Shown in pieces: positions 7,004 through 15,769 of a stretch of DNA of 38,182 nt. Numbering within the stretch: the first letter of the stretch is position 1; the number at the start of each line of letters is the position of its first letter. Under the pieces are notes generated by a model. It was given only the letters and a program-made list of their open reading frames with translations, searched no databases and was not told the DNA's origin. Location: positions 1-38,182 of the IMG/VR virus record IMGVR_UViG_3300013132_000108; one strand, written 5' to 3'. The translations under genes were made by a program, and so were the position numbers. The DNA is from a virus.

Positions 7004-8395
7004 TCAACCGCTATTCTTGGTGATTATCAACTTTGGTCTGTATAGACCTGATGACATGTTTATATTGTAAAGTTTAGACGCAGAATTTGTAGGGGACCAA
7101 TTTTGGTCTATTTCAAGATAGACACTTGCACCTCCAAGAAGAGATCTTGTTACTTTGAATCTTTTAGTTGCAGATCCATTGATGGTGAGATCTGAACCAG
7201 AAGCAGAACCTTTTGTTATTCCGCTAGGAAAATAGAGATACGAACCATCATTAATATTTGAGTAGTGAGTCTGTCTGAATACATCTCCAAATGGTCCTGC
7301 TGGTGATCCACTAGTATTTGTGATCGCTCTCTTAATCTCAAACCAGTTTCTATTTGGTCTTGTAATAGTTAGATTTAGATTACTCACAATAGTGTTGTTA
7401 GCCACAGTAAGTGTGCCTTGTAGTGGAGTATAGTCACCTATTACTATGGTTACTGAATTTTGATCTTCAGAAAAACTACTGATATTAACAGAACCAGATG
7501 AAAGAGTTAATGCAACTGGAGGATTTTGATTATTACCAAGAAATGATATTGATGTTACAATATAATCCGTATCAGGAAAAACCCATGTCTTTAATCTATT
7601 TACAAAAGAGGCTGCATTTGCATTTGTCGTGTTTATTCTAAATGTTAATTGATCTTCATTATCATTATATTCCACCAATGTTATGGCATTGCCAGTATCA
7701 CTTGATGAGATTTGATTCGTTAAATTTCCAGTTCCATAATTTCCGTTAAATCTAGGAAAAAAGTCTGCTGTTTCGCCAAAAGAATAGAACTCTACTGTTG
7801 CTTTTCTGTTTTCATCTACAACAACTTCAGATATATCTCCTACTGTCTGGGTAATCATGTAAGATTCAGATGCTGAAAGTCCACCTTCTTGACTGTTTTG
7901 TATCCGATACCCATATGGATCTGGTATATTACTATTTGGAACAAGATCAAATCTTCCTTTTGAAAGTATTTTCAGGCGATTTCCGCCAATATGTTGAAGA
8001 TACCACTTAACTATCTCAGTAACATCAACATCAACCGAGGTATCATTGAGTTTTACCTGAATGTTTGCTACTGGAGCCGTGCCGTGGACGAATCCACCTC
8101 CATCAGCCACCGCTCCGTTGTTTTCGTTATCATTTTCATTCGGACCACCATCAAGTGGAACAGCGAGATATCCACTAGTAGTTTGAATCTCTAGATCCTG
8201 AAATCCTGTTGAAAAGATGATGTTGTCAGGGTCTGTTACTTCTTTATAAGCATTATATGGATTTGGTGGTAAAACAAAACCAGTAGGCGGTGTTACAGAG
8301 TAACCTCTCCAGTTTGTATTAACATTATCTGCTGCAATGTGAAATGTTAGCGGATGACCAAGATCCTGAAATTTATCCAATGATGTTATTGCCAT
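7004..8395 (-). CDS. Fibre-operon structural protein (463 aa), DNRLRE-like N-terminal part
   Basis: This beta-rich, Asn/Ser/Thr-rich protein follows the gene at 8399 with only one sense codon between. The upstream stop is TAG, then TTT, then this ATG, all in the same frame. Residues about 110-145 (VKLNDTSVDVDVTEIVKWYLQ...GNRLKIL) look like the second half of a DNRLRE-type beta domain, whose first half seems to end the upstream protein. The C-terminus (SGLYRPKLIITKNSG) is a plausible terminal beta strand. It is likely a fibre or adaptor component, inferred from context. The gene could be translated by reinitiation or made as a readthrough fusion of about 690 residues. Confidence 0.6.
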   Translation of the reverse strand: MAITSLDKFQDLGHPLTFHIAADNVNTNWRGYSVTPPTGFVLPPNPYNAYKEVTDPDNIIFSTGFQDLEIQTTSGYLAVPLDGGPNENDNENNGAVADGGGFVHGTAPVANIQVKLNDTSVDVDVTEIVKWYLQHIGGNRLKILSKGRFDLVPNSNIPDPYGYRIQNSQEGGLSASESYMITQTVGDISEVVVDENRKATVEFYSFGETADFFPRFNGNYGTGNLTNQISSSDTGNAITLVEYNDNEDQLTFRINTTNANAASFVNRLKTWVFPDTDYIVTSISFLGNNQNPPVALTLSSGSVNISSFSEDQNSVTIVIGDYTPLQGTLTVANNTIVSNLNLTITRPNRNWFEIKRAITNTSGSPAGPFGDVFRQTHYSNINDGSYLYFPSGITKGSASGSDLTINGSATKRFKVTRSLLGGASVYLEIDQNWSPTNSASKLYNINMSSGLYRPKLIITKNSG

Positions 8396-8398
8396 AAA

Positions 8399-9079
8399 CT
8401 ACATCCAATCTATTTTTCTTTTTATCGGTAGCCGCAGAGTGGCTGATGTAATTTCATCATAACTAATACCCGCAATAGAAGTTGTGTCTAGATCAACAAT
8501 AAACCTTTCAATGGCTCTGATTATCTGCGAAACTTGATCTGGAGGATCTGGTTCATTAGGAGAACAATTAAAGGTATCCCGACTTGAAGGACAATCACCA
8601 GACTGTGTTTCAGATTGACCACCAAATGGTGGTGATCCTGTTGTTGTTCTAGTAGCAACACAATCTATCCCACATAAACAGTTTTGTGAACAGGTAGGAT
8701 CACCAGTATATCGACACACAGCACTCCACTGATTTGCAGGAGGAGTGCCAGACGGCAGAGTGCCATTTAATTGAGTGGCAAATGCATCACAGTTGCAGTC
8801 TTGGCATGTCAACTGACAGGGGTCAGATTCCACACCACCCTTAAAAGGAACACAATTTTCTCCAGACTGTATAATTGTAGTTAGGGCCGCTCCAAATGGA
8901 TTCATCAACCCGATGTGTAGAGTGCCGTCATCAGTAATCTCATTTCTTGTTGGTGAGATCCAAAATGATTTTGAAGTATCAGCAATACCATCAATAACAA
9001 ATATATTTACCTCTGGTGGTCCTATGTCCACATTTGCAGGATCTTTTTTTCTTGGAAAATTTCTAAATGTTCTAAACAT
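8399..9079 (-). CDS. Cysteine-rich fibre-operon protein (226 aa)
   Basis: The N-terminus (MFRTFRNFPRKKDP) is followed by a beta-rich region. About residues 72-170 then contain 12 cysteines in patterns such as CQLTCQDCNC and CSQNCLCGIDC. The C-terminus (residues about 190-226, ..ERFIVDLDTTSIAG..EITSATLRL..) resembles the opening half of a DNRLRE-type domain, where sATLRL-like strands are characteristic, and stops at an in-frame TAG. Two bases separate its start from the upstream stop, with no good ribosome site, so translation is probably coupled. Structural role inferred from the operon; the Cys segment could bind metal or form disulphides after lysis. Confidence 0.6.
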   Translation of the reverse strand: MFRTFRNFPRKKDPANVDIGPPEVNIFVIDGIADTSKSFWISPTRNEITDDGTLHIGLMNPFGAALTTIIQSGENCVPFKGGVESDPCQLTCQDCNCDAFATQLNGTLPSGTPPANQWSAVCRYTGDPTCSQNCLCGIDCVATRTTTGSPPFGGQSETQSGDCPSSRDTFNCSPNEPDPPDQVSQIIRAIERFIVDLDTTSIAGISYDEITSATLRLPIKRKIDWM

Positions 9080-9081
9080 TA

Positions 9082-10713
9082 TTATGATGCCATGAAACAG
9101 AGTGTTTGACCAGTAGCATTGGCTATACAGCCAACCATATTTGAATTACTTGCTTCTATGAAAATTCCCTCACCAGGACTTAGTTCATATCCACTTCCAA
9201 CATTTACTCCTGAAGGACCAACAAAAATTGGTGTTGTATTTGTTGACAATGCTTTAACTGTAACACCACTCTTTAGAGTGTTTGCGCCCAATACTGTTGG
9301 ATTAGTTACGACACTTACCTGTCCAGAAAACACAGCGGGTGGTTGTGTCATATCCACAACCTTTACTGGAACAAGATTTTCTTCGTTGAGACTTTCTGCA
9401 ATACCGCTAATTTGAACACGAACTTGTGCCGAGTCTGTTGCTGGTTCTATTGTTACATTGTTGAGAACAGTTTGAATTCCTGTTCCACCACTTCCAAGAG
9501 CAGTCTTAACAGTAGAGATGTCTGATGCTACAGCCTGTATTTTTCCAAACATGCTATTCGTTGATACCGTATCGTCAGAAAGACCAACAACACTCTGTAT
9601 TGTGGCAAGATCTTCAGCAACATCACCAGAGATGCCAACCCAATCCTTGTTTGTTGCTCCATAGGTCAATCCACGAATATCAAACTTAGAGGCTGTAACT
9701 CCAATAGGACTTCCTGAACTAAATCCTTCAATGCGGATTGACCCGCTCACACCAGCACCTGTGACTGCAATTGCTCCACCCCCTGCGGTGGTTCCTGAAA
9801 TCCATAGTGGAGCCGATGCTGAAGAAGCACCCTTTATATTCACAACATTCGTCACGCTAACATTAGACATGTCGATATTGAATGTTCCACCCGTGAGTGT
9901 TAGTGCGCCAATATCAACTGATAGTTTTCCACCAGATACACCAACAGGACTCCATGAACCACCACTTATTCCAAATAGTGCTGTTGCAACAGGATAGGCT
10001 CCAGAAAAACCCGCAACGCGAATAGAATCAAAACTTGTGCCAGCGGGTGCAGGATCGTCGAAAGTTCCGTATGAAAGGTAGCGAATATCTAGTTCTGCCG
10101 CATTAATCTCAATATTACCATCAATTGAGATTGGATTTGTCATAAAGACCTTCAGAGCATCCGCCGAGACACCGATTGCTGTCGCTGTGGCTCCGCTGAT
10201 ACCATGCACAAGAATATTAACTGCCTTGCCACCAGACACACCCTGAACTGCAACGGAATCGGTTACAGCAGTAAGACCACGAATCTGTAGATTTGAGGCT
10301 GTAATACCAACGTCGGTAGCACCCTGAACTCCATAGACCGATATTGAATCAGTAGCAGCACTCAAGCCGCGAATTCTTAGATTATCAGCAGTAATCGCAA
10401 TGGCGGTCGCACCCGCCTTTCCTGCTACAATGACTGTATCTAAAGATTGTCCAACAATAATTGAATTTACAGTAGACGCACCAGCCAACTGAACCGAGAT
10501 GTTACCATCTGTAAAGGTAACAGGAGTTCCAGCACTATTTGTAAGATACATTGGAAATGGATCAGTTCCAAATTCAACATTTCCAGTCTGATCTACAATC
10601 ATTACATTTTGGTAATGACCTTCTTTTCCTGCGGCGTTTACATAGGTTGTTCGTATGTCAGCCGAGGTGCTGCCGCTGATTAGTGTTACATTATTGTCTG
10701 TGTCAAGAGCCAT
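9082..10713 (-). CDS. Repetitive beta-strand fibre protein (543 aa)
   Basis: First gene of the minus-strand fibre operon, with ribosome site CGGAG before ATG. The body consists of degenerate repeats of roughly 30 residues, for example ITADNLRIRGLSAATDSISV and ITASNLQIRGLTAVTDSVAV, recurring later as VTASKFDIRGLTYGATNKDW. It is rich in Gly/Ala/Ser/Thr/Val, as expected of a trimeric beta-structured shaft. The C-terminus (LSPGEGIFIEASNSNMVGCI..) resembles the terminal strand region of other phage structural proteins. It has no enzymatic motif. Probably a long tail fibre or whisker-like component; the exact position in the virion is unknown. Confidence 0.65.
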   Translation of the reverse strand: MALDTDNNVTLISGSTSADIRTTYVNAAGKEGHYQNVMIVDQTGNVEFGTDPFPMYLTNSAGTPVTFTDGNISVQLAGASTVNSIIVGQSLDTVIVAGKAGATAIAITADNLRIRGLSAATDSISVYGVQGATDVGITASNLQIRGLTAVTDSVAVQGVSGGKAVNILVHGISGATATAIGVSADALKVFMTNPISIDGNIEINAAELDIRYLSYGTFDDPAPAGTSFDSIRVAGFSGAYPVATALFGISGGSWSPVGVSGGKLSVDIGALTLTGGTFNIDMSNVSVTNVVNIKGASSASAPLWISGTTAGGGAIAVTGAGVSGSIRIEGFSSGSPIGVTASKFDIRGLTYGATNKDWVGISGDVAEDLATIQSVVGLSDDTVSTNSMFGKIQAVASDISTVKTALGSGGTGIQTVLNNVTIEPATDSAQVRVQISGIAESLNEENLVPVKVVDMTQPPAVFSGQVSVVTNPTVLGANTLKSGVTVKALSTNTTPIFVGPSGVNVGSGYELSPGEGIFIEASNSNMVGCIANATGQTLCFMAS

Positions 10714-12087: not shown

Positions 12088-12115
12088 GGGGGGTCGAAAG
12101 ACCCCCCGATTTTTT
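12088..12115 (+). terminator. Rho-independent terminator after gp32
   Basis: GGGGGGTC (12088-12095) pairs with GACCCCCC (12100-12107) around a GAAA tetraloop, followed by GA and six T's. The T-run overlaps the stop codon of the converging tape-measure-like gene. Read on the minus strand the same stem is followed by TCTCTTT, so it may also act weakly in that direction. Confidence 0.9.
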
Positions 12116-14252
12116 ATCCAAATGCAATTCCCTGTCTACCCGCACTAGACATTATCTCAAGACTTCTATTTCTTGGATTTAGAGGAGCCATCATCGTTGT
12201 ATTGTTTGTTGGTGCGCTCACAACAAGATTTTTTCTCTCTTCGGTCTTTTGCGGTGTGACATTTGATGCGGCATCAATTGCATCATTTGTTTTAACCATG
12301 TTTTGAGCAGTTAGACTAAGATTTCCTGCTGAAGATGGAGCAACCTGTGCTGGTTCACTTGGTATTGATGGCTTTACTTCTCCTTCACTACTTGAAGATG
12401 GAACAATTTGTGAAACTTTATCATTGCCTGTTCCTTGAGCAGACTTTGTAGGATCAAGATTCTGATCTTCAGGAACTGCAATAAGTCTGCCGACAAGTGG
12501 AATTGAATGAAGAATGTTGTAGAGTTCTTCACCGCCTACACCTTCGGCAAGTGCCATTCCTAATTTATCTCCAATATACGAACCCGCAACTCCTCCTGCC
12601 AATGCACCTAAAGCACCAATAATAAGAGCGCCAGGACCAGTTGCAAGACCTAGAGTTCCTGCGACAGCAGCACCACCCATTGCTCCGATTGAACTGCCTA
12701 TTGCACTACCAACACCTCTCGCAACTCGTTCTCCAATCCTCTTCTTTTTCTCTTTTGCACTAATTTTTGGATCTGATTTGATTGCAGATACATCAATAGA
12801 CATTAATGCAGTTTCAATTGCTGCACCGACAAGCGGTAGTTTTATTAGTTTTGGTAAAAACTTCTTAGAACCTGTCTTTAGCATATCAACAACTTTACCA
12901 AGACCCAAGTTTGAGACTTTCTTACCAACATATTGTGCAGCACCTTTTAATTTGCTGCCCATGCGGCTGAAAAAGCCCTCTTTTGGTGCTTTTTGTGCTG
13001 TTTGTGCTGTTTGACCTGTTGCTGATTTCGCTCCTGATGGAGAAGGCGAAGTTTGTCCTGTGACTGCTTTTTCCATAGCAGCAATCCCACCACCAGTTGC
13101 GACAGCAGGCATTAAACTTTTCAAGCCACGAAGAATTGGTGATCTTTTACCAACATCTTTAAACAATCCACCTCGCATACTGTTAATTCTACGAGAAAGA
13201 CCAATCTTTCCTACGCGAAGCATTCTACCAATTCTGCTTCTACCAAACCTTCTTCCCAACCCCATTCTGCCTCTGCGATCTCTGCTGCCAAAGAGATCAA
13301 AAAGATCTAGTAAACCTCCACCACCCTCCTGCTGACCATCAACTGAGGGTTTTTCTTTCTGAATGTTCGCCTTGACTGCTCTATCAGTTTTTCGCTCACT
13401 TTCAGTCTGACTTTCTTCAAGGAGAGCATTCTGTTGTTCTTGAATCTCATTGTTTCCACGGGCGAAATCAACAAGTTTATCTAACTTTTGATTTGTCTTT
13501 CTACCCTCTTCAAAAATAGAATCAAGTTTCGCCGCTACAGTATCACCAGCATCCTCTTTAACAACCTCTTCTCTTCTTGGTCCTGTGTCTGTGTCTGCTC
13601 CCGTAGTAAAATCAACCTCGGGTGGATTCTTGTATATCTCAGATCCTACTTCGGTCTGTGCATCTTCCACAGGCTTTGCAGCCATCTTCGCTTTTTCTTC
13701 GTCACGCTTTTTCAAAACATCACGGGCAATACGCTTCTGTTTGAATGTTCTTGACAACACTCGTCCAAGCGGACCAGGAATTGTTCTTTCAGCAAGATCT
13801 TCAGGAAGACGAGCAACACCCTTTCGAACTCGCTTACCAAAACTTCCTATTGATTTTCTTACATTTTTCTTGAATAGATCACCAAGAGAACTGGCCTCTA
13901 TCTCTTCAGCCTTTTTTATTCTTTTAGTCTTTTCGTCCTCTTCAGTGTCTTCCTGTTCTTTTTTAGTCTTTGTTCTCTTTTTTGTATCTTTTGATACTTT
14001 TGCGCCATCTTTAAGGATCTTCTTCGTATCCTCGGTGTTTCGCTCAATTTTCTTAAGAGTCTCTAGAACAGGATCTTTCTTGACGATTGTTGATTCTGTT
14101 TCAGGAAGAACTGTCTTTTCAGCAGCAATATCGACTTTTTTTCTTCTATTTGATTTTTTAACTGTATCGCCATCAACATCAGGTAGTGGCAAAGATTCAG
14201 GCTCAACCTGTGGAGTAATTTTTCTTGGTGTTTTTCTTGTTTTCTTAGCCAT
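12114..14252 (-). CDS. Putative tail tape measure protein (gp29-position analogue)
   Basis: This 712-residue protein is counted from ATG at 14252 (MAKKTRKTPRK), which overlaps the end of the gp51 frame. Residues 1-290 are highly charged and helical, probably coiled-coil, Lys/Glu/Thr-rich. About 300-370 is Arg/Gly-rich. About 510-575 is a long Gly/Ala-rich hydrophobic region (GSSIGAMGGAAVAGTLGLAT and following), as seen in tape measure proteins that become membrane-active on injection. It lies directly after the gp26/gp51 chaperone-type genes, the usual place of a tape measure. I could not align it to T4 gp29, so the assignment rests on composition and order. Its 3' end meets the gp32 terminator. 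Confidence 0.55.
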   Translation of the reverse strand: MAKKTRKTPRKITPQVEPESLPLPDVDGDTVKKSNRRKKVDIAAEKTVLPETESTIVKKDPVLETLKKIERNTEDTKKILKDGAKVSKDTKKRTKTKKEQEDTEEDEKTKRIKKAEEIEASSLGDLFKKNVRKSIGSFGKRVRKGVARLPEDLAERTIPGPLGRVLSRTFKQKRIARDVLKKRDEEKAKMAAKPVEDAQTEVGSEIYKNPPEVDFTTGADTDTGPRREEVVKEDAGDTVAAKLDSIFEEGRKTNQKLDKLVDFARGNNEIQEQQNALLEESQTESERKTDRAVKANIQKEKPSVDGQQEGGGGLLDLFDLFGSRDRRGRMGLGRRFGRSRIGRMLRVGKIGLSRRINSMRGGLFKDVGKRSPILRGLKSLMPAVATGGGIAAMEKAVTGQTSPSPSGAKSATGQTAQTAQKAPKEGFFSRMGSKLKGAAQYVGKKVSNLGLGKVVDMLKTGSKKFLPKLIKLPLVGAAIETALMSIDVSAIKSDPKISAKEKKKRIGERVARGVGSAIGSSIGAMGGAAVAGTLGLATGPGALIIGALGALAGGVAGSYIGDKLGMALAEGVGGEELYNILHSIPLVGRLIAVPEDQNLDPTKSAQGTGNDKVSQIVPSSSSEGEVKPSIPSEPAQVAPSSAGNLSLTAQNMVKTNDAIDAASNVTPQKTEERKNLVVSAPTNNTTMMAPLNPRNRSLEIMSSAGRQGIAFG

Positions 14253-14430
14253 TTCTCTTCTTTGCAAGTTCTTCTTGCTTCTTTAGATCCTGTATTATCA
14301 AACCAACATGAATATCTTTTTCCCATGATATCATAGATTCAATTTCGCTGAGATTGTAGTTATGTCTCTTTATCATCTGGAAGAGTGTTAGGTAATAATC
14401 ACTCAGCGACCTTCCATAGAGACTCAGAAG
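14245..14430 (-). CDS. 51: gp51 baseplate hub assembly protein, -1 frame extension of gp26
   Basis: This frame is too short to be obvious but is clearly coding. Read in the -1 frame from the gp26 end it gives 61 codons containing DYYLTLFQMIKRHNYNLSEI, then ESMISWEKDIHVGLIIQDL, resembling gp51-type proteins of T4-like phages. There is no ATG before the conserved part; the first ATG lies inside it (QMIKRH) and only two CTG codons precede. The frame is continuous with gp26 through a slippery T_TTT_TTC, so the likely product is a gp26-gp51 fusion of 294 residues. T4 gp51 is a catalytic assembly factor for the baseplate hub. CTG initiation with GGAAGG upstream is a weaker alternative. Confidence 0.75.
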   Translation of the reverse strand, partial: LLSLYGRSLSDYYLTLFQMIKRHNYNLSEIESMISWEKDIHVGLIIQDLKKQEELAKKRNG

Positions 14431-14456
14431 AAAAAATCAGATGAGTCCCTCACCTC
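14424..14456 (-). other. Predicted programmed -1 ribosomal frameshift site
   Basis: The minus strand reads T_TTT_TTC in the gp26 frame (14430-14436), followed by TTC and the gp26 stop TGA (14424-14426). An SD-like GAGGTGA (14450-14456) ends 13 bases upstream of the heptamer, the distance at which such elements stimulate -1 slippage in bacteria (as in dnaX). Slippage moves ribosomes from gp26 into the gp51 frame. No obvious strong downstream hairpin was seen. Confidence 0.7.
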
Positions 14457-15128
14457 AATCGTATTCTCATGCCCACATTTTCTGCACTTGAAACCGCCTG
14501 AATAGTGAAGATTTGGCATCTTGTCTATAAATTCAACCATCTTTTCAAATACTTCATTGCCCAAGTTTTCAACAAATTCAGCCAACTCTCCTCTTGAATA
14601 GTCAGCAGCCTTCATGATATTATCTTTATCATAGACATAATCTATACAATCAAGAACAAAGTCAAACATTTCTTGTGTGCTTGGTGATTCAACAGCCATC
14701 TTCAGCGAGGTGTCCATATTTGGATACTTCATAACAATACCCATGCTCTCGCTAATCTGAACTTTTGGAGAAACCGAGTTGCTTTTGTCTATCTTAACTT
14801 GATCAAAATCAACCATGCAAAGATTTACCTCTTTGCACTCAGTGCAGTAAAAATTGATCTTTGACTTTTCACCAATAGATTTTGATCTAATTTTTAAATA
14901 CATGTATTCAAGATCAAAAAGGGGAAGAGAATCAACATCAATTCCACCCTGAACGCAGTTGCTTATTGTCTGCTTGATGCCGTCATACATCTCTCGTTCT
15001 GCTTTGCTCTCAAGAGCCATGAGAAGAATCTTTTCTTCTCTAACAAGAAATGGTCTAAATTTGATCTTTTTCCCCGTAGAGGGAAGAATCATCTCATAAT
15101 GTGGAACTGAAATTGTTGGTAGACTCAT
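14424..15128 (-). CDS. 26: gp26 baseplate hub assembly protein
   Basis: This 234-residue homologue of T4 gp26 (208 residues) has a strong ribosome site (AGAGGATG). Typical family text is visible: KKIKFRPFLVREEKILLMA (about 20-38) and LPLFDLEYMYLKIRSKSIGE (about 68-87). Cys pairs at C95/C98 (YCTEC) and C215/C218 (FKCRKCGHEN) could form a zinc site. gp26 is needed for assembly of the central baseplate hub in T4. Here it is followed by an overlapping gp51 frame reached by -1 shift, and by a tape-measure-like gene, which suggests a tail assembly chaperone role. Termination at TGA gives gp26 alone; slippage gives gp26-gp51. Confidence 0.85.
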   Translation of the reverse strand: MSLPTISVPHYEMILPSTGKKIKFRPFLVREEKILLMALESKAEREMYDGIKQTISNCVQGGIDVDSLPLFDLEYMYLKIRSKSIGEKSKINFYCTECKEVNLCMVDFDQVKIDKSNSVSPKVQISESMGIVMKYPNMDTSLKMAVESPSTQEMFDFVLDCIDYVYDKDNIMKAADYSRGELAEFVENLGNEVFEKMVEFIDKMPNLHYSGGFKCRKCGHENTIEVRDSSDFFF

Positions 15129-15145
15129 CGTATATCATCCTCTAT

Positions 15146-15769
15146 TTACGCTTGAAATGGAAGTTCTGAAACATCACCCTGATATGGATTACCTGACAGA
15201 AGTGGCTTTGGCAATTTATTTACATATGGAATATAACTTACAATAGAATAATCGCGGTAGGCAAGTGAAACAGATACAGACTGACTTTCATCTGTTTTCA
15301 TACCCGAAAGATCAAGATCAGTTATGACTTTTGGATATACTTCGTGCAGTGTAACTTTCATCACTTCATTATCAGAACGATCAAGTTGCGATATTGAAAG
15401 TTCCTGAACAAATGTGTCATAGTAATTTATGAATCCATTTGAATATGGAGCAACACGATTTATCCAATCCTCAAAGATCAATTTTTCTAACATATCTTCA
15501 CCAAGACGAAAAACCATCTGAATCTCGTTATTGTAGAGCAATTCATACGGCATCTCCCGCTTTGGTCCCTGTATCTTGTAAGTCGCCGTTGAGACTGAGC
15601 GACCAGGCATCGCAGTTGATTCAATCGAATAGTTTAATCTCAGGTTCCATTGAATGGGAAATCCTGAGAAAAATATCTCATAACGAGCAGGAGAAAGATT
15701 TCCATAACCAAATAGGTCTGAAAATCCCTTGAATCCTGATACATTACTTGGTATTACTGCTCTTGGCAT
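15146..15769 (-). CDS. Tail tube fold protein (gp19/gp54 paralogue)
   Basis: This 207-residue protein starts within the stop of the upstream gene (TAATG). The pattern of the T4 tube family is visible: NLSPARYEIFFSG (about 25-37), SIESTAMPGRSVSTATYKIQ (about 48-67, like the KATALPAG region of gp19), LIFEDWINRV (about 97-106), then VMKVTLHEVYPKVITDLDLS and a final SVSVSLAYRDYSIV, equivalent to ..WPTNVGELQLDW..FEVTLALDYW in T4 gp19. T4 gp19 forms the tail tube and gp54/gp48 are related initiators. With gp48 found separately at 16905, this one could be the main tube protein or a gp54-like initiator. Its position just before gp26/gp51 and the tape measure mirrors siphophage tail modules. Confidence 0.75.
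   Translation of the reverse strand: MPRAVIPSNVSGFKGFSDLFGYGNLSPARYEIFFSGFPIQWNLRLNYSIESTAMPGRSVSTATYKIQGPKREMPYELLYNNEIQMVFRLGEDMLEKLIFEDWINRVAPYSNGFINYYDTFVQELSISQLDRSDNEVMKVTLHEVYPKVITDLDLSGMKTDESQSVSVSLAYRDYSIVSYIPYVNKLPKPLLSGNPYQGDVSELPFQA

Follow-up and report, generated by a model that had tools for sequence, protein, structure and literature searches.

The window analysed here is the whole of a 38,182-base virus record (IMG/VR record IMGVR_UViG_3300013132_000108, positions 1 to 38,182), in which a homologue of T4 gp26 is followed on the minus strand by a frame similar to T4 gp51. We conclude, with a probability of roughly 0.92, that gp26 and the gp51 frame constitute one tail assembly chaperone gene, which is read in two ways by -1 slippage. 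The evidence for the frameshift is comparative throughout and consists of the conservation of the site and the frame, the absence of start codons, a fold match, the gene order and paralogy. The features that make up the locus are as follows.

14424..15128, minus strand: gp26 homologue, predicted short tail assembly chaperone (0-frame product, 234 residues), recognized by PF12322 (4e-61), phrog_150 (3.5e-64) and a fold match.
14430..14436, minus strand: slippery heptamer T_TTT_TTC, in phase with gp26 and one codon before TGA.
14424..14426, minus strand: TGA stop closing the short form.
14245..14436, minus strand: -1 frame, the gp51 (long-form C-terminal) domain, as judged from the open frame, phrog_634 and codon-position identity.
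14447..14456, minus strand: Shine-Dalgarno (SD)-like stretch GAGGTGAGGG, probable 5′ stimulator, as judged from its position and family-wide enrichment.
14360..14423, minus strand: downstream RNA with a possible fold (outer stem GTCTCT...AGAGAC), weak candidate for a 3′ stimulator.

A first-pass annotation had proposed that gp26 ends in GAT TTT TTC TTC TGA and that a -1 frame reading as gp51 is entered at this point, and both proposals were borne out. The heptamer T_TTT_TTC was located at 14436–14430 and the TGA at 14426–14424, while the -1 frame stays open from 14436, through the gp26 stop, until its own stop at 14245 and matched phrog_634 ("baseplate hub assembly catalyst", 1e-17), the match beginning at residue 2 of the frame. 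As had also been stated, no ATG precedes the conserved part, since the first one (14376) lies inside it, and neither GTG nor TTG was found upstream of this ATG in the -1 frame of the window. Splicing of gp26 to the -1 frame gave 294 residues, the length expected, with the predicted junction peptide of the fusion being ...SSDFFLLSLYGR. Between the window and a related viral contig (L003), codon positions 1, 2 and 3 of the -1 frame were 95%, 97% and 70% identical, respectively; this is how a frame that is translated should behave and suggests that the frame is under coding selection.

The relatives compared were 253 gp26 loci whose stop lay within range, grouped at 70% identity into 134 clusters. 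Alignment of relatives, the check that had been suggested for the junction, revealed an in-phase T_TTT_TT(C/T/A) near the gp26 stop in 250 of the 253 loci and at the junction in 131 of the 134 clusters, the three clusters without the heptamer being T4 gp51 itself and two from Ackermannviridae. Because an in-phase T_TTT_TTN was present at only 10 of 31,265 other codon positions in gp26, a chance origin of the junction motif is excluded. Codon usage pointed in the same direction: the pair TTT TTC occupied 84 of 131 junctions versus 8 of 133 other Phe-Phe pairs in the same genes (p=4e-25), and the base preceding the pair was T at all 131 junctions versus 32 of the 133 other pairs (p=7e-45). Complete -1 frames, available for 126 clusters, all run 58–79 residues from the heptamer (126/126), with a median of 6 for the +1 frame; through residue 12 of the -1 frame, no ATG was present in 101 of these clusters and no ATG, GTG or TTG in 78.

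The close relatives, three viral contigs (L001–L003) whose gp26 is 75–76% identical to that of the window, keep GAT TTT TTC TTC TGA and the -1 frame, and have the same letters as the window from the heptamer to 15 bases beyond the stop. The nearest matches to the window were 76% identical among viral contigs and <40% among isolates, and a blastn search of the locus against isolate phages matched only gp4-like DNA. It was also observed that in 17 loci (e.g. L007 and L181) the 0-frame stop is situated 27 nucleotides, not 3–6, beyond the first base of the second slippery codon, so that the short form would carry several extra residues. In records of cyanophages and of Pelagibacter and Methylophilales phages (e.g. 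L007, L008 and L009), gp51 is annotated as separate, often N-terminally truncated, or is missing; in these loci the -1 frame extends upstream without a stop as far as the slippery site.

Upstream of the heptamer, the GAGGTGA claimed as an SD-like element was present at 14456–14450 and, as claimed, ends 13 nucleotides before the heptamer; it is overlapped by GAGGG (14451–14447), which ends 10 nucleotides before it. Among the clusters, SD-like words (GGAG, GAGG, AGGA or AGGG) within -20 to -4 of the heptamer were found in 95 of 131, compared with 8.2% of same-phase controls, and their 3′ ends lie mostly 8–11 nucleotides upstream of the heptamer. The glutamate codon at the SD-like position was GAG in 57 of 81 cases versus 735 of 2940 (25%) elsewhere (p=4e-17). 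On these sequence comparisons, the SD-like element is a family-wide feature. For the RNA downstream of the junction, the family mean z was -1.57 versus -0.58 for in-gene controls (mononucleotide shuffles), and the fold of L001 had a z of -2.6.

The window gp26 scored 206.9 bits against PF12322 (cut-off, 24.5), and with its matches to PF12322, phrog_150 and phrog_634 the window gene is assignable to the T4 gp26/gp51 family. An AlphaFold model of gp26 (mean predicted local distance difference test score, pLDDT, 89.7; 82 sequences) was compared with 773 chains of solved structures. The top three PDB matches were HK97 gp13 (2OB9, Z 8.2), Rbstp2171 (3FGX, Z 7.6) and YqbN (3KLU, Z 7.4), all of which are phage tail assembly chaperones (PMC9603447); the fourth-ranked match had a Z of 4.9. 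The structural matches were confined to residues 1–95. Thus, gp26 is predicted to have the tail chaperone fold. Foldseek with the same model also ranked HK97 gp13 first, with a weak E of 0.29, and a sequence search of the PDB with the gp26 profile returned nothing useful. A Pfam scan of the window proteins, made without a comparison with lambda or P2 sequences, turned up no other chaperone family.

In T4, genes 26 and 51 are on opposite strands; PF12322 was found in both products and the phrog_634 domain in gp51 alone. The spliced-fusion profile aligned colinearly with Straboviridae (T4-type) gp51 across the junction, the point at which T4 gp26 stops. T4 gp26 and gp51 are paralogues, with gp26 corresponding to the short form and gp51 to the long form contained in one open reading frame. 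Two PF12322 genes were present in T4, RB43, Aeromonas phage 31, SFHK24 and KARL-1; 15 other phages, among them Aeh1, LPCS28 and phi-Grn1, which are also Straboviridae, had a single copy. Phages that have the shift site carry a single PF12322 gene, and the T4-type phages without the site carry two such genes. In the tree, the ten T4-type 26 and 51 domains formed one side of a branch with a support of 99/96 (midpoint root). The simplest reading would be that the frameshift was replaced by duplication in the T4 group. It was noticed that in RB43 (L254, 1301–2594) the two PF12322 copies are adjacent and on the same strand, whereas those of T4 are divergent. The proposal that gp26 and gp51 are the T4-lineage form of the tail chaperone pair is supported by the predicted fold, the gene order and the short/long paralogy in T4. 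The further claim, that the mechanism is preserved, stands for the window and its relatives, which have the conserved shift site, but not for T4 itself, in which the two genes are distinct and the slippery site is lacking.

The locus is part of a T4-like structural block, in which the order of the minus-strand genes is gp4-like, gp2-like, tube-like, gp26, gp51 frame and a 712-residue protein. Two neighbours flank the chaperone gene.

15146..15769, minus strand: tail tube or tube-initiator-like gene directly upstream of gp26 (phrog_3629, 6e-23; phrog_45, 1e-21).
12114..14252, minus strand: 712-residue protein, tape-measure candidate on position, length and hydropathy.

Gp26 is thereby placed between a tube-like gene, recognized by family match, and a long tape-measure-like open reading frame. 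The latter overlaps the gp51 frame by 8 nucleotides and its product has one hydrophobic segment; its sole PHROG match was a weak one to phrog_34863, a family of unknown function. In the relatives, a long open reading frame was found close behind the chaperone locus in 105 clusters. Elsewhere in the window, three minus-strand open reading frames at 7004–10713 (463, 226 and 543 residues) had no Pfam or PHROG match.

By the mechanism proposed, most ribosomes would end at the TGA and yield the 234-residue short form. The upstream SD-like stretch would pair with 16S ribosomal RNA and thereby aid a minority of ribosomes to slip, both phenylalanine transfer RNAs on UUU UUC stepping back one base and re-pairing on UUU UUU. 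The slipped ribosomes would read past the stop and give the 294-residue long form. If the parallel with lambda gpG/gpGT holds, the tape measure protein, whose gene follows directly, would be coated by numerous short chains and a small number of long ones, and tail tube subunits would be recruited by the additional domain of the long form. T4 would obtain the same two forms from a pair of paralogues, gene 26 for the short and gene 51 for the long one.

Production of gp51 as a separate small protein, through termination followed by re-initiation at a start further downstream and with the T-run being incidental, would agree with the many cyanophage records in which gp51 has a gene of its own and with the presence of an ATG near the junction in about 20% of the clusters (25/126). 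However, in most clusters, including the window, the conserved part is not preceded by a usable start, the -1 frame can in every case be read without a stop from the heptamer onwards, the heptamer itself is nearly invariant, and Straboviridae gp51 holds the whole gp26 domain in a single chain; we consider this explanation very improbable. Slightly less probable again is that the extension arises from transcriptional slippage on the T-run, i.e. from mRNAs with altered numbers of T. Although 6–7 T in a row may in principle be enough for a polymerase to slip, six T and then a C make a short run for this, and the in-phase X_XXY_YYZ together with a conserved SD-like element 8–11 nucleotides upstream fits ribosomal slippage. 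Re-initiation and transcriptional slippage were both rejected as main explanations. That a single open reading frame was split by an insertion or deletion at the T-run, through sequencing error or as a pseudogene, has a negligible probability: homopolymers are error-prone, but this junction recurs across 250 independent loci and is also present in complete genomes of isolates, and the relatives carrying it refute this explanation.

Several observations weigh against -1 slippage on a chaperone gene as set out above. The evidence for the long product and for slippage is comparative only, from which we infer the slippage itself, its efficiency and the protein partners. The SD-like element takes a different form in the window from that in L001–L003. 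The downstream RNA fold of the window was not significant (z -1.0, dinucleotide shuffles), and for this reason a downstream RNA stimulator is not claimed despite the family enrichment. The candidacy of the 712-residue protein as the tape measure depends on position, length and hydropathy. Structural matches with Z of 7–8 can arise by chance, yet the three obtained form a coherent set. Finally, a long-form model built from T4-like gp51 with a shallow alignment (9 sequences) recovered no tail chaperones.

A variant of the junction was noticed in Ackermannviridae and in Vibrio phage K474 (L278–L295, L013, L014, L262 and L259), where the C-terminal domain is kept and the heptamer is absent. The gp26 stop is part of TAATG in Limestonevirus-type loci and in K474, and most other heptamer-less loci have an invariant ATT TAATT (ATT-TA-ATT) at the stop, which could represent either a start at ATT or a hop over the stop codon. 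This suggests that the C-terminal frame of Ackermannviridae begins at the TAATG or ATT-TA-ATT overlap, by re-initiation or a stop-codon hop. It is conceivable, although we would rather doubt it, that the PF12322 chaperone has three routes to its two forms: a -1 shift with an SD-like stimulator in most lineages, including the window; duplication into 26 and 51 in the T4 group; and the stop overlap without a heptamer in Ackermannviridae.

T4 gp26 and gp51 have been listed as hub assembly chaperones, and gp51 has been described as essential, absent from the finished particle and of unknown function (PMC3004832); T4 was called the exception to the conserved tail frameshift in a 2016 review (PMC5009743). 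With the frameshifted form found widely among T4-like phages in the broad sense, these two proteins, long regarded as chaperones of hub assembly without a clear function, become readable as a duplicated form of the frameshifted gene. A correction is due for the cyanophage and other records in which "gp51" is separate, truncated or missed, and the conserved SD-like element offers a direct target for a mutational test. The title of Vladimirov, Gautam & Davidson (Virology 566:9-15, 2022) states that T4-like chaperone genes were identified and that a mechanism other than frameshifting is proposed. As cited by others, this paper reports that some T4-like phages carry one short and one long (fusion) gene (PMC10885494) and that the short chaperone genes of T4-like phages contain poly-T signals for a -1 shift (PMC12846349). 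Because these two papers cite it so, the core inference is taken as published in outline. We found no description of the conservation of the SD-like element, of the codon statistics or of the Ackermannviridae variant in the literature covered, in which the 2022 paper is represented by its title and by citations, and the paper itself may contain them.

Compared with known systems, the locus resembles lambda gpG/gpGT, a short and a -1-frameshifted long chaperone that are both absent from the virion and bind the tape measure protein (PMC5009743). The likeness is in the short/long scheme as described, no lambda sequence having been compared, and the window differs in shifting on T_TTT_TTC. The tail assembly chaperone locus of Pakpunavirus/Vandenendeviridae belongs to another phage family and has the motif GTTTTT (PMC12846349). 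T4 gp26 and gp51 are similar to the short and long forms of the window locus, respectively, and differ in being encoded by two genes on opposite strands without a slippery site. With respect to the T4-like chaperones of Vladimirov et al., as known from the citing papers, the window differs in coming from an uncultivated lineage whose nearest isolates are <40% identical. The window locus is a well-supported new example, from this uncultivated lineage, of the published T4-like principle.
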